A DNA stretch of 64,000 nt. Origin: Streptomyces sp. NBC_00569. Its GTDB lineage: Bacteria; Actinomycetota; Actinomycetes; Streptomycetales; Streptomycetaceae. Position numbers and translations under genes: made by a program. Under the pieces are notes generated by a model. It saw nothing but the letters and a program-made list of their open reading frames with translations, was not told the origin of the DNA and made no database searches. This document shows, piece by piece, positions 3,614 to 12,231 of this stretch (position 1 is its first letter; each line of letters begins with the position of its first letter). The stretch covers positions 1,116,001 through 1,180,000 of the forward strand of contig NZ_CP107783.1 of assembly GCF_036345255.1 (NCBI RefSeq), in the 5' to 3' direction.

Positions 3614-3626
3614 GACGTCTGATGTC
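3614..3626. promoter_or_regulatory. nan-locus operator motif, copy 1
   Basis: GACGTCTGATGTC fits the near-palindrome GAC(A/G)TC-N-GA(C/T)GTC that recurs three more times in this locus. It lies 71 bp before the FadR-type regulator gene, consistent with autoregulation. The link to the regulator is inferred from position and recurrence. Confidence 0.65.
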
Positions 3627-3696
3627 CGATGCCTTGGTAGCGTAGAAACGGCCCGGGCGGCGGGCCCAGGCGCGTCCAGAGGTGGGGAGACCGCTC

Positions 3697-4419
3697 ATGC
3701 CCGGTACCAGGCCGGTCCGGCCACTGCTCCGGCAGGAAGTCGCCGACGGCATCAAGCGGTACATCCTCGAGAACCGGCTGCACCCCGGTGATCCGCTGCC
3801 CACGGAGACGGAGTTGTGCGAGGCCCTCGGCGCGAGCCGGTCCAGCGTCCGCGAGGCGGTCAAGATCCTGCACGCGCTCGACATCGTCGAGGTCAGGCAC
3901 GGCCACGGCACGTACGTGGGACATCTGAGCCTGTCCGCCCTTGTCGAGAGCCTGACGTTCCGCGGGCTGCTGAGCCCCGACGACGACGTGCAGGTGCTCG
4001 CCGACCTCGTCGACGTGCGTGAGCTGTTCGAGCGCGGCATGGCCGAGCGGATCGTCGCGTCACTCAACGGCGAGCAACTCGACGCGCTGGAGCGCCTGGT
4101 GACCCGGATGAGCGACGTCGGTGTCGGCGGTGACGGCCAAGGGCTCATCGAGGCCGACCGCGCGTTCCACGCCCTGCTCGTGGCGCCACTCGGCAATGAC
4201 CTGATGGGCCAGCTCTCGATGGCGTTCTGGGATGTGTACGCCATCGTGGCCCCGCAGATCGACGGCTTCACGCACACCGAGCAGGCGGAGACCGTCGCCG
4301 CGCACCACAGCATCGTGACGGCGGCCCGCGCGGGCGACGCGGCGGCGTTCGTGCGGGCCATCGGTGAGCACTACGCGCCGGTCCGACGGCGCATCTCCGA
4401 GGCCCGCACGCGCTCTTGA
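3697..4419 (+). CDS. nanR: FadR/GntR-family regulator of the sialic-acid locus (NanR-like)
   Basis: The N-terminal winged helix-turn-helix (residues about 10-70) contains LPTETELCEALGASRSSVREAVKIL and the wing HGHGTYVG. It is followed by an all-helical FCD effector domain, which makes it a FadR-subfamily GntR protein. The ATG at 3697 has GGGGAG seven bases upstream; a GTG five codons earlier is less likely. Enterobacterial NanR also belongs to this subfamily, and the gene directly precedes sialidase, aldolase, kinase, epimerase and transporter genes. The ligand is therefore probably sialic acid or a downstream amino sugar. This is a role inferred from context. Confidence 0.75.
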   Translation: MPGTRPVRPLLRQEVADGIKRYILENRLHPGDPLPTETELCEALGASRSSVREAVKILHALDIVEVRHGHGTYVGHLSLSALVESLTFRGLLSPDDDVQVLADLVDVRELFERGMAERIVASLNGEQLDALERLVTRMSDVGVGGDGQGLIEADRAFHALLVAPLGNDLMGQLSMAFWDVYAIVAPQIDGFTHTEQAETVAAHHSIVTAARAGDAAAFVRAIGEHYAPVRRRISEARTRS

Positions 4420-4459
4420 CGGCCCTGTGCGGCGCCCCTAGGGTCCCTCAACGAAACAG

Positions 4460-4506
4460 GACATCTGACGTCTGCTGTCCTCTCTTTCGCACGGACATCT
4501 GACGTC
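4460..4506. promoter_or_regulatory. Pair of identical nan-locus operator motifs
   Basis: The same 13-mer, GACATCTGACGTC, occurs at 4460-4472 and 4494-4506, 34 bp start to start, just upstream of the sialidase gene. That is roughly three helical turns, a spacing that suits two regulator dimers on nearly the same face of the DNA. Confidence 0.7.
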
Positions 4507-4547
4507 GGACGCGCCCACAGGAACCTCCGCAGAGATGAGAGCCGTCC

Positions 4548-5714
4548 ATGCATCGAAGAATGCTCGTCGCGCTGGTGTCCGCCGGACTTCTCACCCTGGG
4601 ATCGGGAACGACCGCCCTCGCCCACGGTGATCGACATCCCGGAAACCGGAGCGAGTTGACCTCCCAGGACCTCGCCACCCGGGGAGCCGGATTCCCGCAG
4701 TACCGGATACCCGCCCTGACCACGTCCACAAAGGGCACGCTCATAGCGGCCTACGACGGCCGGCCCACCATGGCCGATCTCCCCAGCCACATCGCCCTCG
4801 TGGTGCGGCGCAGCACGGACGGCGGCGCCACATGGCAGGCGCAGCAGGTCGTGCGGAGCGAGGCCGCCCCCAAGGGGTTCGGAGACCCGAGCCTGCTCAC
4901 CGACCGCGCCACGGGCCGGATCTTCCTCTTCCACGCCGCCTCGGTGAACCAGGGGTTCGCCGGGTCGCACACCGGTAACGACGACGACGATCCCGACATC
5001 CTGCACGCCGACTACAGCTACTCGGACGACGACGGGGTGACCTGGCGCCACCGCCGCATCACGTCGATGGTCAAGAACCCCGCGTGGGGTGGCCTGTTCG
5101 CCGCGTCCGGCGAGGGCATCCAGCTGCGGCACGGCCCGCGCAAGGGGCGCCTTCTCCAGCAGTACGCGATCCGGATCGACGGCGCGAACTTCGCGGCGAG
5201 CGCGTACAGCGATGACCACGGCGCGACCTGGAGGATGGGCGAGCCGGTCGGGCCGGGCGGCGACGAGAACAAGACGGTGGAGCTGTCCGACGGGACGGTC
5301 ATGCTCAACAACCGTTCGGCGCCGTACCGGACCGTCGCGTACTCCACCGACGGCGGCGCCACGTACACGCCGTTCGCACCCGACCCGCAGCTGCCCGACC
5401 CGGCGAACAACGCGTCGATCATCCGGTACGCCCCCGACGCGCCGCCGAGCGACCCCCGCTCGAAGTGGCTCCTGTTCAGCAACACCGAGGACACCGGGGC
5501 CCGCCGTAACCTCACCGTCAAGATGTCCTGCGACGACGGCGTGACGTGGCCCGTGAAGAAGGTCGTCGACCCCGGGGCGGCCGCCTACTCCACCCTGACC
5601 CGGCTGCCGGACGGACTCGTGGGCCTGCTGTACGAACGCGGCGACTACCAGCACATGACCTACGCCTCGTTCGGCCTGAAGTGGCTGGGCGGGGGGTGCG
5701 GGCACCAACGGTGA
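4548..5714 (+). CDS. Secreted exo-alpha-sialidase (GH33)
   Basis: A signal peptide (MHRRMLVALVSAG..., cleavage likely after TALA) precedes a six-bladed sialidase fold. The Arg of the catalytic triad is in YRIPAL, an aspartate lies in AAYDGRP, and five Asp-box repeats are visible: STDGGATW, SDDDGVTW, SDDHGATW, STDGGATY and SCDDGVTW. The enzyme should release terminal sialic acid from glycoconjugates outside the cell. At 388 residues it is a minimal catalytic domain without added carbohydrate-binding modules. It sits between the regulator and the uptake and breakdown genes, with two operator motifs in its promoter region. Confidence 0.9.
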   Translation: MHRRMLVALVSAGLLTLGSGTTALAHGDRHPGNRSELTSQDLATRGAGFPQYRIPALTTSTKGTLIAAYDGRPTMADLPSHIALVVRRSTDGGATWQAQQVVRSEAAPKGFGDPSLLTDRATGRIFLFHAASVNQGFAGSHTGNDDDDPDILHADYSYSDDDGVTWRHRRITSMVKNPAWGGLFAASGEGIQLRHGPRKGRLLQQYAIRIDGANFAASAYSDDHGATWRMGEPVGPGGDENKTVELSDGTVMLNNRSAPYRTVAYSTDGGATYTPFAPDPQLPDPANNASIIRYAPDAPPSDPRSKWLLFSNTEDTGARRNLTVKMSCDDGVTWPVKKVVDPGAAAYSTLTRLPDGLVGLLYERGDYQHMTYASFGLKWLGGGCGHQR

Positions 5715-5741
5715 CCGTCTCGGGAATGTGACCTCTACCCC

Positions 5742-5772
5742 TTGACCGCCCCCGCAGGGTGCGACTTAAGGT
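5742..5772 (+). promoter_or_regulatory. Candidate promoter of nanAKET
   Basis: TTGACC (5742-5747) lies 19 bp before TAAGGT (5767-5772); a 17-bp reading uses CTTAAG. It is upstream of nanA and just ahead of an operator-like site, so bound regulator would sit around the transcription start. This was read by eye. Confidence 0.4.
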
Positions 5773-5787
5773 GACGCCAGGACGTAG

Positions 5788-5800
5788 GACGTCTTATGTC
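5788..5800. promoter_or_regulatory. nan-locus operator motif, copy 4
   Basis: GACGTCTTATGTC matches the locus motif with one departure (T for G in the right half). It is 46 bp before nanA. Confidence 0.6.
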
Positions 5801-5845
5801 TGACGCCCTACCCCCTCTGAACCGAAGAGAACCCGGAGCGCCGCC

Positions 5846-6805
5846 ATGCCCCTGACCGCACCCCTGCGCGGGGTCGTCCCGCCCGTCTGCACCCCCCTCG
5901 ACGAGACGGGTGAGGTGGACACCGCCTCCCTGGCCCGTCTCGTCGAGCACCTCGTCGCGGGCGGCGTGCACGGACTGTTCGCCCTCGGCTCGACCAGCGA
6001 GGTCGCGTATCTGACCGACGAGCAGCGTGCCGTCACCCTGCGGACCGTCGTGAAGGCGGCGGCGGGACGGGTCCCCGTGCTCGCCGGTGTCATCGACACG
6101 ACGACCGCGCGCGTCGTCGCCCACGCACGCGTGGCCGCCGACCTCGGCGCCGACGCCCTGGTCGCCACCGCGCCCTTCTACACGCGCACCCACCCCAAGG
6201 AGATCGCGGGCCACTTCCGCACCCTGCACGCGAGCGTGGACCTGCCGCTGTTCGCGTACGACATCCCGGTCGCCGTCCACAGCAAGCTCCCCGCGTCGCT
6301 CGTGCGGGAGCTCGCCGAGGACGGCACGCTCGCCGGCCTCAAGGACAGCAGCGGCGACGAGGGCGGGCTGCGCCGGCTGCTCGTCGAGCTCGGCGGCCGC
6401 GACGGGCGCACGGACGGGCCCGCCCCGCACTTCTCCGTCCTGACCGGATCCGAACTCACCGTGGACTGCGCCCTGTTGGCCGGCGCGGACGGCGTCGTCC
6501 CCGGCATCGGCAACGTCGACCCCGCCGGATACGTGCGCCTCTACGACGCCGCGCTGGCCGGTGACTGGTCACTCGCCGCCAAGGAGCAGGAGCGTCTCGT
6601 CGCGCTGTTCGGCATGGTCGACGTGGGACCCGAGGCCGACATGGGGCGCAGCTCGTCCGCGCTCGGCTCGTTCAAGGCGGCGCTGCGCCTCCTCGGAGTC
6701 ATCGAGTGCGGCGACACGGCGTTCCCCCAGATCCAGCTCGGTGAGGAGTCCGTCGCCGAGGTCGCGCAGCATCTGCGGGCCGCCGGGCTCGCGCCGGTCC
6801 GATGA
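5846..6805 (+). CDS. nanA: N-acetylneuraminate lyase-type aldolase (DapA/NanA family)
   Basis: This TIM-barrel aldolase belongs to the DapA/NAL family. It has a GSTSE substrate-carboxylate motif (family GST(G/S)E), the catalytic Tyr in AYDIPV and the Schiff-base Lys in GLKDSSGD. At 319 residues it is somewhat longer than E. coli NanA, with an insert near GGRDGRTDGPAP. In this locus it would split N-acetylneuraminate into pyruvate and N-acetylmannosamine. Sequence alone does not separate lyases from other DapA-family aldolases, so specificity rests on neighbours. Its stop overlaps nanK in an ATGA. Confidence 0.8.
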   Translation: MPLTAPLRGVVPPVCTPLDETGEVDTASLARLVEHLVAGGVHGLFALGSTSEVAYLTDEQRAVTLRTVVKAAAGRVPVLAGVIDTTTARVVAHARVAADLGADALVATAPFYTRTHPKEIAGHFRTLHASVDLPLFAYDIPVAVHSKLPASLVRELAEDGTLAGLKDSSGDEGGLRRLLVELGGRDGRTDGPAPHFSVLTGSELTVDCALLAGADGVVPGIGNVDPAGYVRLYDAALAGDWSLAAKEQERLVALFGMVDVGPEADMGRSSSALGSFKAALRLLGVIECGDTAFPQIQLGEESVAEVAQHLRAAGLAPVR

Positions 6806-7731
6806 CGGTCACAGGTCCGGCGATCGGCCTCGACCTCGGAGGCACGAAGATCGCCGCCGCCCTCGTCGCGCCGGACGGCACGGTCCTCGCCCGGCACACG
6901 CGGGCCACGCCCGCGGCCGACGGACCCGAGGCCGTGCTCGACGCGCTCGCCGCCGCGGCCCGTTCGGTCGACGGCGGCAACGCCCCCGGTGTCCTCGGGG
7001 TCGCCGCGGCCGGGGTGATCGACCCGGTGACGGGCACCGTCACCAGCGCCACGGACTCGATCCGCGGCTGGGCCGGCACGGCACTGGCCGCCGGCCTCGC
7101 GGCCCGTACGGGCCTCCTGGTCGCGTGCGACAACGACGTACGCGCGACGGCGGCCCCCGAACTGGCCGCCGCCGGCGCGGGAGCGTCCCTCGTCTACGCG
7201 GCGATCGGCACCGGTGTCGGCGGCGCCCTGGCCGTGGGCGGGCGCATGGTGCACGGAACCGCGGGCATCGCCGGTCATCTCGGCCATGTGCCGAGCCCCG
7301 AAGCGGCGGGACTTGCCTGCACCTGCGGCGGCACGGGACATCTGGAGGCCGTCGCCTCGGGGCCGGGGATCGCCGCACTGTACGGACGGCTCACGGGCCG
7401 GCCCGTGGACCGCCTGGAGACCGTGGCCGAACGGGCCGCGTCGGGTGACGAGCCGGCCGTGCGCGCCATCGTGACCGGCGCGGTCGCCGCGGGCCGGGTT
7501 CTGGGCGGTCTCGCCAACACGCTGGGGCCCGACCGGGTCGTCGTCGGCGGCGGAGTGCCGCACATCGGGCCCCTCTACTGGGACGCGCTGACCGAGGCGT
7601 TCGCCGCCGAACTCATGCCGCCCCTGGCCCGGCTCCGGCCGTCGAGGCCCCTCTTCGGGGCCGACGCCGCCGTCATCGGCGCCGCGCGCCTGCCCACCCA
7701 GGTCCCGCTGCACGCGCCGCCCCCGTCCTGA
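6802..7731 (+). CDS. nanK: ROK-family N-acetylmannosamine kinase
   Basis: The ATP-binding start GLDLGGTKIAAAL (residues about 9-21) and the GHLGHV motif define a ROK sugar kinase. The zinc-binding signature, usually CxCGxxGCxE, reads CTCGGTGHLEA, so the last Cys is His. That could still bind zinc, or the site may be weakened. The predicted reaction is N-acetylmannosamine plus ATP to N-acetylmannosamine-6-phosphate. There is no N-terminal helix-turn-helix, so it is a kinase and not a ROK repressor. It is translationally coupled to nanA and followed 23 bp later by nanE. Confidence 0.8.
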   Translation: MTVTGPAIGLDLGGTKIAAALVAPDGTVLARHTRATPAADGPEAVLDALAAAARSVDGGNAPGVLGVAAAGVIDPVTGTVTSATDSIRGWAGTALAAGLAARTGLLVACDNDVRATAAPELAAAGAGASLVYAAIGTGVGGALAVGGRMVHGTAGIAGHLGHVPSPEAAGLACTCGGTGHLEAVASGPGIAALYGRLTGRPVDRLETVAERAASGDEPAVRAIVTGAVAAGRVLGGLANTLGPDRVVVGGGVPHIGPLYWDALTEAFAAELMPPLARLRPSRPLFGADAAVIGAARLPTQVPLHAPPPS

Positions 7732-7754
7732 CCATCCCTTCCCTGGAGCCCTCG

Positions 7755-8447
7755 ATGAACGACCCCGCGCCCTCGTCCCCCGTCGCCGGCCTGCTCGACG
7801 GCAGGCTGATCGTCTCCTGTCAGGCACCGCCCGGAGATCCCATGCGCGACACCGGCACCCTCGTACGGCTGGCCCGGGCGGCCGCGGCCGGCGGGGCGGC
7901 CGGGATCCGGGCCAACGAACCCGAGGTCGTCGCCGCGATCTCCGCCGCCGTCGACCTGCCTCTCATCGGGCTGTGGAAGGACGGGGACACCGGCGTCTAC
8001 ATCACGCCGACCGTCCGGCACGCCTTGGCCGTCGCCGAGGCGGGTGCCCACATCGTCGCCACCGACGCGACCGCGCGCCCCAGGCCCGACGGCGGCACGT
8101 TCGCCGACGTCGTGGCGGCGGTGCACGCCGCCGGGGCCCTGGTGATGGCCGATGTGGCGACCCTCGACGAGGGCGTCGCCGCGGCCGCCGCCGGCGCGGA
8201 CTTCGTGTCGACCACGCTGTCCGGCTACGTTCCCGGCTCCCCGCGCCAGGACGGTCCCGACCTCGATCTGGTGGCCGCGCTCTCGGCCGCGCTGGCCGTC
8301 CCGGTCGTCGCGGAAGGCCGTATCAGCACCCCCGAAGAGGCCGCGCTGGCGCTCGCGCGGGGTGCGCACAGCGTCGTCGTCGGCACCGCGATCACCGCAC
8401 CCACCGCGCTGACCTCGCGCTTCGTGACCGCGCTCCCCCGTACGTAG
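7755..8447 (+). CDS. nanE: N-acetylmannosamine-6-phosphate 2-epimerase
   Basis: This 230-residue TIM barrel carries family motifs in order: LIVSCQA, the loop WKDGDTGVYITPT, the catalytic and phosphate-site segments ATDATARPRPDG, LMADVATLDEG and TTLSGY, then VVAEGRI and VVVGTAIT. It converts N-acetylmannosamine-6-phosphate to N-acetylglucosamine-6-phosphate, which NagA (not in this window) would deacetylate. Length and motifs are normal. It lies between the kinase and the transporter in the same direction and is very likely in one operon. Confidence 0.92.
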   Translation: MNDPAPSSPVAGLLDGRLIVSCQAPPGDPMRDTGTLVRLARAAAAGGAAGIRANEPEVVAAISAAVDLPLIGLWKDGDTGVYITPTVRHALAVAEAGAHIVATDATARPRPDGGTFADVVAAVHAAGALVMADVATLDEGVAAAAAGADFVSTTLSGYVPGSPRQDGPDLDLVAALSAALAVPVVAEGRISTPEEAALALARGAHSVVVGTAITAPTALTSRFVTALPRT

Positions 8448-8542
8448 TTCCCGCTCACCCCCTCTCCCCCACTCAGGCCGTACCGCACCCCACACCGCAG
8501 ACGGGACTCGACGGCGAGTCCTTCCGGCATCCTGGAGTAATC

Positions 8543-10024
8543 GTGCACACCACAGCCAAGCCACCGCTCCCCTGGTACCGCGAGGTGAGCCGGACCCAGT
8601 GGAAGGCGTTCTTCGCCGCCTGGATCGGCTACGTCCTCGACGGGTTCGACTTCGTCCTGATCACCCTCGTGCTGACCGAGATCAGCTCGGACTTCGGCCT
8701 GAGCACCGTGCAGGCCGCGAGTCTGATCTCCGGCGCGTTCATCACGCGGTGGCTCGGCGGAGCGGTCCTGGGCGCGCTCGGTGACCGGTACGGCCGCAAG
8801 CTCTCGATGGTCCTCAGCATCCTGCTGTACTCCCTGGGCACGTTCGCGTGCGGCTTCGCCTGGGACTACACGAGCCTGTTCGTGGCGCGCCTCGCGATCG
8901 GGATGGGCATGGCCGGCGAATACAGCGCCAGCGCCACGTACGTCATGGAGAGCTGGCCCACACGCGTGCGCAACCGGGCCAGTGGCTTCCTGATCTCGGG
9001 CTTCTCGATGGGCTCGGTGCTCGCCGCACAGGTCTACAACTGGGTCGTGCCCACGCTGGGCTGGCGCTGGATGTTCTACGTGGGCCTCCTCCCGATCGCC
9101 GTCGCCCTGTGGATGCGGCGGGCGCTGCCGGAGGCGGCGGACTGGAACGAGGCGGTCGGCAAGCAGGCGGCGAAGGAGCGGCCGAACCCGTTCCGGCCGC
9201 TGTTCGCCACGCCCGCCAGGGCGACGGTGAACGTCGTCCTCGCCGTGGCCGCCACCGTGTCGTTGTTCGCCGTCTTCACGCCCGCCGGCGACGGGCTCGT
9301 GCCCGTGCTGTCCGTCGTGGCCGCGGCCGCGCTCATCGCGTTCGCCGTGCAGCTGGGCGGGCGCAGGAGCTGGCTGCTCTACGTGTCGATGATCGTGACG
9401 ATCTTCTTCGCGTTCCTGTACTCGTGGCCGATCCAGGCGCTGCTGCCGACGTACCTCAAGACCGAGCTGGGCTACTCGCCGGAACAGGTCACCGACGCGC
9501 TGTACTTCGCGGGCTTCGGCACGATGGCGGGCTGCTGGCTCGCGGGCTTCGCCGGTGACCGGATGGGCACGAAGAAGGCGTACGCGCTGACGCTGCTCGC
9601 CTCGCTGGTCTTCGTCTTCCCGGTGTTCGCGGTGCGCGACAACCTTCTCCTGCTCGGCGCCCTGCTCTTCGTGCTCCAGGCGACCAGCTTCGGCATCTCC
9701 GGGCTGCTGCCCCGGTACATCGGCGGTCACTTCCCCACCGAGAACCGCGCCGCGGCGCTGGGCTTCACGTACAACGTGGGTGCCCTCGGCGGAGCCGTCG
9801 CGCCGGTGCTCGGCGCGCATCTCGCCGCGGGCATGGACCTGGGGCGCGCCCTGGCCGTGCTGACCTTCGCGGGGACGGTGATCGTGGTCCTGCTGGTCGG
9901 CTTCGACGTACCGGGACGCCTGAACCGCCTCACCGACCCGGAGGGCACCGTCGACCACCTCGCGGAAGCGACACCGGAGGCGTCGTCGGCGTCCTCCGAT
10001 GCGGTCCCCGCGGCGACCCGCTGA
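8543..10024 (+). CDS. nanT: Sialic acid:proton symporter, NanT type (MFS)
   Basis: From its N-terminal PWYREVSRTQWKAF and LDGFDFVLITLVLTE to the central FAFLYSWPIQALLPTYLKT and the late GFTYNVGALGG, this 493-residue protein closely follows E. coli NanT, including its extra central hydrophobic segments. Such similarity between an actinomycete and an enterobacterial carrier is striking and suggests a conserved substrate, N-acetylneuraminate. The start is a GTG at 8543 with GGAG five bases upstream; the frame is open far upstream but that part is not protein-like. A short C-terminal tail (residues about 465-493) is hydrophilic. Confidence 0.92.
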   Translation: MHTTAKPPLPWYREVSRTQWKAFFAAWIGYVLDGFDFVLITLVLTEISSDFGLSTVQAASLISGAFITRWLGGAVLGALGDRYGRKLSMVLSILLYSLGTFACGFAWDYTSLFVARLAIGMGMAGEYSASATYVMESWPTRVRNRASGFLISGFSMGSVLAAQVYNWVVPTLGWRWMFYVGLLPIAVALWMRRALPEAADWNEAVGKQAAKERPNPFRPLFATPARATVNVVLAVAATVSLFAVFTPAGDGLVPVLSVVAAAALIAFAVQLGGRRSWLLYVSMIVTIFFAFLYSWPIQALLPTYLKTELGYSPEQVTDALYFAGFGTMAGCWLAGFAGDRMGTKKAYALTLLASLVFVFPVFAVRDNLLLLGALLFVLQATSFGISGLLPRYIGGHFPTENRAAALGFTYNVGALGGAVAPVLGAHLAAGMDLGRALAVLTFAGTVIVVLLVGFDVPGRLNRLTDPEGTVDHLAEATPEASSASSDAVPAATR

Positions 10025-10043: not shown

Positions 10044-10970
10044 TCAGCCCTCTGTCCAGGGGCGCAGCTTCTCCGGGTTGCGTACGGCCCAGATGTGGGT
10101 GATCCGGTCGCCGGAGATGCGAAACGCGAACACGGTGACGGTGACGCCGTCCTGCTGGGCGACCAGGCCGGGCCGGCCGTTGACCGTGCGCTCCAGAAGC
10201 GTCAGGTCGGGTGCCAGGCGGGCGACGTTGAGATAGGCGTGGGCTACCCGTTCGCGGCCCGTGATCGGCCGGCGGAGGGCGCCGACCAGGCCCCCGCCGT
10301 CGGCGATCACGGTGGCGTCGGGGTCCAGAAGGCCCACGAGGGCGCCCACGTCCTTCGCCGCCCAGGCCAGTTTGAACTCCCGGACGATGCCGGCCTGCGC
10401 GGTCGTCGGCCCGGCGGGGGCCTGCGCGTCGCGGATGCGGCGGCGGGCCGAGGAAGCCAGCTGACGGCAGGCCGCCGGCGTGCGGCCGACGATCTCGGCC
10501 ACCTCGGCGAACGCGTAACGGAAGACGTCGTGAAGGATGAAGGCGACGCGTTCGGCCGGCGTCATGGATTCCAGTACGACGAGGAAGGCCATGTCGACCG
10601 ACTCGTCGAGGGTGATCCGGTCCGCCGGGTCCGCCGCGCCGCCGTCGGTCCACTCCCGGCGCTCGGGAAGCGGCTCGGGGATCCACTCGCCCACGTAGCG
10701 CTCCCTGCGCGCACGGGCGGAGCCGAGCAGATTGAGGCAGATGCGGCTCGCGACCGTCGTCAGCCAGGCGCCGGGGGAATCGATGGCATCCCGTTGCGGC
10801 CGGTCCATGCCGTACCAGCGGACGTACGTCTCCTGCACGACGTCCTCGGCGTCGGCCAGCGAGCCGAGGAGCCGGTACGCCAGATCGGTCAGCTGGCGCC
10901 GCTCGCTCATGATCGCGTCAAGGCCCGGATCGGGCCGCTGACCGTGTGCCGTCTCGGATCGGTTGGCCAT
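10044..10970 (-). CDS. sigJ: ECF41-family sigma factor with SnoaL-like C-terminal domain (SigJ type)
   Basis: Sigma region 2 (YRLLGSLADAEDVVQETYVRW) and region 4 (EVAEIVGRTPAACRQLASSARRRI) are followed by an NTF2-like C-terminal domain. The three ECF41 signatures are present in slightly varied form: WIPEPL between the sigma regions, then ADGGG and NPEKL in the extension. In this family the C-terminal domain, not a separate anti-sigma factor, tunes activity. ECF41 genes usually sit beside an oxidoreductase, carboxymuconolactone decarboxylase or epimerase. Here the divergent neighbour is a SnoaL/LUD pair. The ATG at 10970 is chosen, with a GTG four codons earlier as alternative. Confidence 0.88.
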   Translation of the reverse strand: MANRSETAHGQRPDPGLDAIMSERRQLTDLAYRLLGSLADAEDVVQETYVRWYGMDRPQRDAIDSPGAWLTTVASRICLNLLGSARARRERYVGEWIPEPLPERREWTDGGAADPADRITLDESVDMAFLVVLESMTPAERVAFILHDVFRYAFAEVAEIVGRTPAACRQLASSARRRIRDAQAPAGPTTAQAGIVREFKLAWAAKDVGALVGLLDPDATVIADGGGLVGALRRPITGRERVAHAYLNVARLAPDLTLLERTVNGRPGLVAQQDGVTVTVFAFRISGDRITHIWAVRNPEKLRPWTEG

Positions 10971-11027
10971 GATGTCGCGCACTCCCTTTCCTCGGCCTCG
11001 TACGTGCCCTCCATCTGATTGACGGGA

Positions 11028-11079
11028 CAGCCCTTCGGAATGTGACGTCGTTCCCGTCGCCTCACATTCCGGAGGGCTG
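11028..11079. promoter_or_regulatory. Long inverted repeat between sigJ and snoaL-lud
   Basis: Two 18-bp arms (11028-11045 and 11062-11079; CAGCCCTTCGGAATGTGA and its complement with one mismatch) flank a 16-bp spacer. It lies between two divergently transcribed genes, so it is unlikely to be a terminator. The inner TGTGA...TCACA suggests a symmetric regulator site or overlapping promoters. Confidence 0.7.
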
Positions 11080-11115
11080 CGTTGTCGTAAGAGGCATACG
11101 GAACGGAGGAAGCCG

Positions 11116-11583
11116 ATGACCGACTTTCAAGCGATTGCCGACCGCGTGGAGATCGAGGCGCTGCGCGGCGAGTTCACCGACGCGGCGATGATGCGCGACC
11201 GCGCCCGCCTCGCGTCCCTGTTCACGGAGGACGGCGTGCTGCGGATGCCCGACGTCCCCATCGAGATGAACGGCCGGGAGGAGATCCGCACCGGGGGCGA
11301 GCGGCTCCAGGCCCAGTGGGACTTCTTCGTGCAGAACACACATCCGGGCGTGATCCGCATCGACGGCGACAGGGCGACCGGCCGCGCCTACATGCAGGAG
11401 ATCGCGCGCATGAAGAGCGGTTTCCAGGGCCTCAACTACGCGATCTACCACGACCGTTACCGCCGCACGGACGACGGCTGGAAGTTCTCCGAGCGCGTCT
11501 ACGAGATCAGGTACTTCGACACCACCCCGCTGACGGGCTCGGCACCGGCCGGGGACCCCCGCACGCCCAAGGAGGCACGATGA
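11116..11583 (+). CDS. SnoaL-like / NTF2-fold protein
   Basis: This 155-residue protein has a SnoaL-like fold pattern: an N-terminal helix with RGEFTDAAMMRDRARLASLFTED, then sheet elements ending in YHDRYRRTDDGWKFSERVYEIRYFD. Proteins like this are often annotated as polyketide-cyclase-like, with unknown activity. It has a good ribosome site (GGAGG) before the ATG, follows the long inverted repeat, and overlaps the LUD gene by ATGA. Note that the divergent sigma factor also ends in an NTF2-like domain. Confidence 0.75.
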   Translation: MTDFQAIADRVEIEALRGEFTDAAMMRDRARLASLFTEDGVLRMPDVPIEMNGREEIRTGGERLQAQWDFFVQNTHPGVIRIDGDRATGRAYMQEIARMKSGFQGLNYAIYHDRYRRTDDGWKFSERVYEIRYFDTTPLTGSAPAGDPRTPKEAR

Positions 11584-12215
11584 CCGTCTCGACTCCCGCC
11601 ACACTGTTCACCGGCCCGGCGTCCGCGGACCGCTTGGAGCGGGCGGCAGCCGCGCTGGCGGCGCACGGCTTCACCGTCGAGATCCTCGATGACGCCGCCG
11701 CGGCGCGCACCCGTGTCCAGGAGCTGATCCCACGGGACGCCAGTGTGTTCACCACGGCCAGCGAGACGCTGCGGCTGTCCGGCATCGACGACGACATCAA
11801 CACCAGCGGCCGGTACCGGGCCGCCGTCAAGCCCCGTGCGGTGACCATGGACCGGGCCACCGAGGCGGACGACATCCGGCGCCTCATCGCCGTCCCCGAC
11901 GTCGTCGTGGGCAGCGTCGCCGCGCTCACCGAGACCGGCTCCCTCGTGGTGGCCTCGGCCAGCGGAAGCCAGTTGCCCGCGTACGCGGGTGGCGCCGGGC
12001 GCGTGATCCTGGTCGTCGGGGCGCAGAAGGTGGTCCCCGACCTGGACACCGCGCTGCGCCGCCTCGAGGAACACGCCCTCCCCCTCGAAACCACCCGCGC
12101 CCTGGAGGTGTACGGCCGGCCCAGCGCCGTCAACCAACTCCTGGTCCTCCACGCGCAACCCCTCACGGGCGGCCAGGGAATCGTCCTGCTGCTCCGCGAG
12201 GCGATCGGGTTCTGA
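11580..12215 (+). CDS. LUD-domain protein (LutC/YkgG-like)
   Basis: The frame starts at the ATG overlapping the previous stop (AAGGAGG four bases ahead) and encodes 211 residues. The LUD pattern is visible in VQELIPRDASVFTTASETL, VVVGSVAALTETGSLVVAS and GRVILVVGAQKVVPDLDTALRRLEEHALPLE. LutC-like proteins take part in lactate oxidation with LutA and LutB, which are absent here, so this is a stand-alone LUD protein of unknown role. Control by the divergent ECF41 sigma factor is a reasonable guess. Confidence 0.8.
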   Translation: MTVSTPATLFTGPASADRLERAAAALAAHGFTVEILDDAAAARTRVQELIPRDASVFTTASETLRLSGIDDDINTSGRYRAAVKPRAVTMDRATEADDIRRLIAVPDVVVGSVAALTETGSLVVASASGSQLPAYAGGAGRVILVVGAQKVVPDLDTALRRLEEHALPLETTRALEVYGRPSAVNQLLVLHAQPLTGGQGIVLLLREAIGF

Positions 12216-12231
12216 ACCGACGCCTGACGCG

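Follow-up and report, generated by a model that had tools for sequence, protein, structure and literature searches.

The stretch analysed here, called the window, is the 64,000 nucleotides at positions 1,116,001-1,180,000 of the single-contig 10.32-Mb genome of Streptomyces sp. NBC_00569, and the nearest named relatives of its NanT come from Streptomyces. Six genes lie within 3614-10024 of the window, all on the plus strand and without internal stops: nanR, a sialidase gene, nanA, nanK, nanE and nanT. We are confident that this locus is an operon for scavenging sialic acid, of a kind already known from actinobacteria, run by the mechanism proposed below, and that its nanT is shared with Streptomyces relatives and is not a recent import from enteric bacteria. 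The order regulator, sialidase, A, K, E, T, described in a first-pass annotation of the window, was reproduced by Pfam, NCBIfam and PDB matches, and it does differ from the E. coli order, as the annotation had said, because MG1655 reads nanR-A-T-E-K-Q. The GntR and FCD domains found by Pfam agree with the FadR-type regulator named at the same time. The start codons of nanR (ATG 3697; the mechanical open reading frame begins with GTG at 3682) and nanT (GTG 8543) were preferred by eye. The features are listed below, in which exact and one-mismatch matches refer to the 13-mer GACRTCNGAYGTC and the wider core is GACRTCNNAYGTC.

3614..3633, unstranded: operator-like 7-bp repeats 5' of nanR (GACGTCT GATGTCC GATGCC); exact match at 3614
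3697..4419, plus strand: nanR, GntR-FCD regulator, 240 amino acids; Pfam GntR 67.8 bits, FCD 76.5 bits
4460..4479, unstranded: operator-like repeats, array 1 before the sialidase gene; exact match at 4460
4494..4513, unstranded: operator-like repeats, array 2 before the sialidase gene; exact match at 4494
4548..5714, plus strand: GH33 sialidase, 388 amino acids; PDB 1eur 412 bits, five Asp-box-like motifs
5742..5772, plus strand: promoter-like TTGACC / TTAAGGT immediately ahead of the nanA array, read by eye
5781..5807, unstranded: four operator-like 7-bp repeats in an array ahead of nanA; wider core perfect, one-mismatch matches at 5781 and 5788
5846..6805, plus strand: nanA, probable N-acetylneuraminate lyase (DHDPS superfamily), 319 amino acids; Pfam DHDPS 149 bits, PDB 5c54 307 bits
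6802..7731, plus strand: nanK, probable ROK-family N-acetylmannosamine (ManNAc) kinase, 309 amino acids; Pfam ROK 172 bits
7755..8447, plus strand: nanE, ManNAc-6-phosphate 2-epimerase, 230 amino acids; PRK01130 260.9 bits (cut-off 189), PDB 4utt 175 bits
8543..10024, plus strand: nanT, sialate:H+ symporter (ST1 family), 493 amino acids from GTG; NF003024 680 bits (cut-off 604)

A canonical nan cluster has been defined as nanA, nanK and nanE within 10 open reading frames (PMC8754123), and in the window the three genes are consecutive at 5846-8447. The nanA and nanK genes overlap by 4 bases, and a gap of 95 bases separates nanE from nanT. The route to fructose-6-phosphate is complete on paper because nagA (278 bits, cut-off 226) and nagB (246 bits, cut-off 237) are encoded elsewhere in the genome, which upholds the earlier claim of a complete pathway for the scavenging of sialic acid.

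In the mechanism that we infer for the activities, secretion, effector, repression and co-transcription of nanAKET, a secreted GH33 sialidase would free N-acetylneuraminate outside the cell, and NanT would import it with protons. NanA would convert N-acetylneuraminate to ManNAc and pyruvate, NanK and NanE would carry ManNAc on to ManNAc-6-phosphate and N-acetylglucosamine-6-phosphate, and NagA and NagB would complete the route to fructose-6-phosphate. The FCD regulator would repress nanR, the sialidase gene and nanAKET through the 7-bp repeat arrays located at or just after the promoters, and would release the DNA upon binding the sugar or a pathway intermediate.

Assignment of the transporter, enzymes and substrate

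The NanT profile match spans residues 8-481 of 497, and its score of 680 bits exceeds the curated sialate:H+ symporter cut-off of 604. Aligned with E. coli K-12 NanT over 484 residues, the protein shows 56.2% identity, in keeping with the first-pass description of a NanT-type symporter that is E. coli-like along its whole length. There was no close solved relative of NanT among the solved structures searched. NanE, at 260.9 bits, likewise scores above its curated cut-off.

The sialidase carries a Pfam BNR_2 domain, and the closest solved chains are 1eur and 1eut, both named 'SIALIDASE' (412 and 410 bits). The chain 1eur is the Micromonospora viridifaciens enzyme. Arg53, Asp77, Glu240, Arg256, Arg319 and Tyr347 of the window protein align with the catalytic positions of 1eur, and the RIP arginine, Asp, Glu, two more Arg, Tyr and Asp boxes of a GH33 exo-sialidase were all found. 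The likeness to the M. viridifaciens sialidase thus covers the GH33 catalytic domain with its conserved catalytic positions; the 1eut chain is longer (605 residues), and the 388-residue window sialidase shows only BNR-type Pfam domains above the gathering cut-offs. Its N-terminus resembles a signal peptide when read by eye. Two more BNR_2 sialidase-like proteins are encoded in the genome, at 6902865 (L118) and 2633334 (L119), with BNR_2 scores above that of the window sialidase; one of the two has a laminin-G domain, and a fourth, partial BNR_2 match lies at 1200349.

Several results weigh against the reading of the locus as a sialate operon with these gene names. NanA scored 92 and 86 bits against the curated NanA cut-offs of 281 and 382, and its best NCBIfam match was to dapA, which is not a lyase, at 128.5 bits and itself below the cut-off of 206. 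The best NCBIfam match of NanK was PRK05082 (118 bits, cut-off 283), with a glucokinase family next at 117 bits, and His replaces the third Cys of the usual ROK zinc motif. For the regulator, the best NCBIfam match was NanR PRK03837, at 95 bits against a cut-off of 260. In addition, a second import locus in the same genome, described below, means that the window locus may not be the sole sialate route. Because all three proteins fall below the E. coli-type cut-offs, the names NanA, NanK and NanR rest on context, on nearer relatives and, for NanK and NanR, on their best matches. The closest solved chain to NanA is 5c54 (307 bits), from C. glutamicum, which its depositors named 'Dihydrodipicolinate synthase/N-acetylneuraminate lyase', and Tyr138 and Lys166 correspond to the Tyr and Schiff-base Lys of the superfamily. 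The His substitution in NanK was also present in five of five Streptomyces relatives compared.

Host or animal-derived glycans, on which growth had been thought to be implied by the locus, are one possible source of sialic acid. Another nonulosonic acid, for example the 2-keto-3-deoxynononic acid (Kdn) of fungal or actinobacterial cell walls, could be the natural substrate instead of animal N-acetylneuraminic acid (Neu5Ac), but we regard this as improbable. Kdn breakdown gives mannose and would have no need for the N-acetylmannosamine steps on which NanK and NanE act. The presence of both enzymes would therefore favour Neu5Ac, and NanT scores above the sialate cut-off. A substrate of the Kdn type would suit a soil-type host; papers exist that mention teichulosonic acid and Streptomyces, and nan clusters may serve other nonulosonic acids (PMC8754123).

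Evolutionary history and distribution of NanT

The first-pass annotation had raised a possible transfer of nanT. Acquisition of nanT or of the whole operon fairly recently from an enterobacterium would be in line with the identities of the window NanT, which are higher with E. coli NanT (56%) than with the NanT proteins of Actinotignum, Kocuria and Corynebacterium (47-50%). Among the rows compared, however, the closest NanT proteins outside Streptomyces are those of other actinomycetes, with 60-62% identity for Allonocardiopsis, Sciscionella and Saccharopolyspora erythraea. A maximum-likelihood tree of 55 NanT rows was rooted on E. coli NanX, the sole outgroup; eight rows (L088, L036, P0130, P0146, P0181, P0210, P0211 and P0231) were left out. 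The 15 enteric rows (five of them labelled only as Pseudomonadota) formed one clade with 100/100 support and without any Streptomyces row. This clade adjoins Sciscionella and two Saccharopolyspora rows (91/79), apart from Streptomyces. The 18 Streptomycetaceae rows group with 74/33 support only, and two further Streptomyces NanT proteins (P0163 and P0228) fall with Allonocardiopsis and Saccharopolyspora erythraea. When the 18 Streptomycetaceae rows and the enteric rows were constrained to one clade, the tree was 22.2 log units worse, and it was moderately rejected by the approximately unbiased (AU) test (p-AU 0.025). A recent enteric origin is disfavoured because the tree separates the enteric rows from Streptomyces and because of this AU result; also against it are the presence of nanT in 49 of the 246 genomes sampled from the genus (this genome counted, matches at E<=1e-100) and a G+C content of 71%, like that of the surroundings. 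The transfer from enteric bacteria is not supported, and we consider it very unlikely.

An ancient exchange between actinomycetes and an enterobacterial ancestor, in either direction and possibly from actinomycetes to enterics, is a less remote prospect, although still a doubtful one. The enteric clade lies beside Sciscionella and Saccharopolyspora, within a mainly actinobacterial set, and the NanT of Sciscionella shares 64% identity with the E. coli protein and 62% with that of the window. Set against this, a tree in which all 39 actinobacterial rows formed one clade was not rejected (p-AU 0.312), the only outgroup, NanX, sits on a very long branch, and sampling is thin beyond the two groups. 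An E. coli IncF plasmid (L112), typed as conjugative, carries a nan cluster, and its NanT relative is 50% identical to the window NanT.

The locus had also been called unusual for a soil-type genome, a view that finds no support in the share of NanT-positive genomes in the genus given above or in a published survey. Clusters of nan genes were reported in 13% of actinobacterial species and in 8.37% of Streptomyces species, and the nan-positive Streptomyces species were free-living, apart from one whose source is unknown (PMC8754123). The same report lists ST1 MFS transporters in 18 species and gives a fadR regulator for 226 of the 234 clusters from the class Actinomycetia. In S. olivaceus, only the free-living strains, whose lineage has the nan cluster, used Neu5Ac as sole carbon source (PMC8749437). 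Elsewhere the family model was matched by four of 396 genomes drawn phylum-wide, three of them in this genus including the own genome, by seven of 398 taken from the phylum to which a Pseudomonas genome belongs, and by five of 61 genomes from the family of Actinotignum, four of them above the cut-off. The best 120 of 1023 NanT relatives in the protein database were largely named 'sialate:H+ symport family MFS transporter' of Streptomyces.

The window locus is an ordinary gene set of an already described kind; less expected are the shared repeat operator and the second import locus. With the actinobacterial ST1 clusters (Li and Huang 2022, PMC8754123) it shares clustered nanA, nanK and nanE, an MFS transporter of the ST1 family, a fadR-type regulator, the sialidase that is sometimes present, and a free-living Streptomyces host. 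It differs from them in that the regulator and sialidase genes directly precede nanAKET on one strand. From 82 relative loci 80 were confirmed, of which 79 were actinobacterial and 63 from Streptomycetaceae. Within these 63 loci, some of which are cut by contig ends, the one-strand order nanR-sialidase-nanA-K-E-T was shared with the window by L009 and L010 alone. By tblastn, nanK and nanE lie beside nanT in 19 of the 63, and nanA was not found upstream of nanT in 10, one of which (L012) is at a contig end. L042 and L020 have the sialidase gene further upstream, with a divergent second nanR between it and nanA. In L042 (Streptomyces sp. HB132), an AXE1-family esterase at 577-1587, which is not in the window operon, separates the window-type nanR from the sialidase gene. 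L069 and L054 (S. noursei and S. nigrescens) have nanT at about 8000 with an upstream operator core, and nanA, nanK and nanE were not found in these loci.

One genome that is not among the 49 with a NanT match (G039) shows homology within the window's first 24 kb at 10044-12229 only. Synteny breaks directly after nanT: the homology begins at the end of a sigma-factor gene (10044), and there is no nan block in the compared stretch (L149). No clean empty site for the nan block could be demonstrated in this comparison.

The 7-bp repeats and the regulator

Arrays of 7-bp repeats precede nanR (3614), the sialidase gene (4460 and 4494) and nanA (5781). The 5' limit that the first-pass annotation gave for the locus, 3614, is the first base of such a repeat, and the repeat before nanR is also present in L009 and L010. 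The exact 13-mer GACRTCNGAYGTC was found at three places in the window, all in the nan locus. Only exact matches are telling, because with two mismatches allowed there were 26 matches in the window compared to 23 expected. The 10.3-Mb genome contains five exact places, the three in the nan locus included, and two for a reversed control pattern. The two outside places lie within a GDSL hydrolase-like frame and over the likely start codon of a sugar-binding lipoprotein (named by eye), and they may be due to chance because the control gives the same number. A wide regulon of this 13-mer in the genome was rejected on these counts.

The wider core GACRTCNNAYGTC, which has 11 fixed letters, was counted in 78 regions lying upstream of nan genes, taken from the actinobacterial loci L009-L087 (L023 was dropped because of a contig end). 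All 11 letters matched in 56 of the 78 regions and at least 10 in 64. The corresponding counts were 2 and 5 of 536 for regions upstream of other genes in the same loci, 0 and 5 of 390 for block-shuffled copies, and 3 and 20 of 1446 for random stretches; a chance origin of the repeats is rejected by this comparison. The core had been fixed after the letters upstream of nanA in 14 loci were inspected and after a narrower pattern had been seen to match further loci exactly. Among the 64 loci not inspected beforehand, 44 matched perfectly and 51 reached at least 10 of 11 letters; for the 47 loci that were neither inspected nor among the narrower-pattern hits, the counts were 30 and 35. As related loci were counted apart, these are not independent events, and 10 of 16 loci outside Streptomycetaceae fall short of 10 core letters. 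In 65 aligned sites (window included), A and T recur at a 7-bp period across four repeats, the outer two being weaker, and TTGAC-type letters stand upstream of the repeats at about the same place in many relatives. No core was found between nanE and nanT (best 7 of 11 letters). The pattern suggests that the 7-bp repeat array is likely the operator of NanR. No printed description of the 7-bp repeat was found in open-licence papers; a NanR regulon has been reported in Bifidobacterium (PMC4746261).

E. coli NanR binds as three dimers to three GGTATA repeats, which lie downstream of the polymerase site, by way of a 32-residue N-terminal extension (PMC8012715). The GntR domain begins at residue 32 in that protein, with 31 residues before it, whereas in the window NanR it begins near residue 12 and is preceded by about 11, so the long E. 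coli-type extension is missing and an arm of this type cannot be used. The two systems share the pathway, the NanT family, an FCD-type repressor and a repeat operator downstream of the polymerase site. They differ in gene order (nanATEKQ in E. coli) and in repeat spacing, which is 7 bp in the window and 9 and 8 bp in MG1655. By analogy, the use of repeats by the window NanR would resemble that of E. coli NanR in plan, with binding and its mode predicted from the sequence.

The second import locus and implications

A search with the divergent NanR of L042 led to a second locus in the same genome (L154, 6,606,000-6,625,500). Its gene set is as follows.

L154 11218-18681 (genome 6617217-6624680): SatA-like binding protein, ABC permease and ATPase genes, nanA, a NanR paralogue and one exact operator core

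The NanR paralogue is 44% identical to the window NanR and is divergent from the binding-protein gene. The exact core lies at the start of the paralogue's longest frame, or in the divergent region if a later ATG is used. The second nanA is 65% identical to the window nanA; neither nanK nor nanE was found within L154. The binding protein scored 364-365 bits against 5za4, 5z99 and 5yyb, and the next match reached 117. The chain 5Z99 is SatA of H. ducreyi, and ST1 comprises NanT and NanX (PMC10017367). These matches liken L154 to the SatABCD (ST3) ABC importer; the difference is that its NCBIfam matches were to peptide/nickel ABC families, with the binding protein and the permease scoring below the cut-off, and that the locus lies outside the window. 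The genome would thus carry two predicted sialate-type import systems.

Taken with the operator counts, this leads to a tentative proposal, which we hold to be possible but somewhat short of probable. Lacking the N-terminal arm with which E. coli NanR stacks its three dimers, the nan regulators of actinobacteria may read up to four 7-bp repeats with side-by-side dimers. A single old and wide code would then be used in Streptomyces, Kitasatospora, Allonocardiopsis, Sciscionella and Kocuria, and one letter off in Corynebacterium parakroppenstedtii, and in this genome it would link a NanT and a SatABCD-type system, each with its own nanA.

The second locus would matter when a nanT knock-out is interpreted, since L154 could sustain uptake. 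The operator code offers a cheap and testable handle on the control of nan clusters and may help in recognising genes regulated in trans, for example the solitary nanT of S. noursei-type genomes. The window locus itself adds one well-formed example to the published pattern of free-living streptomycetes that scavenge sialic acid.

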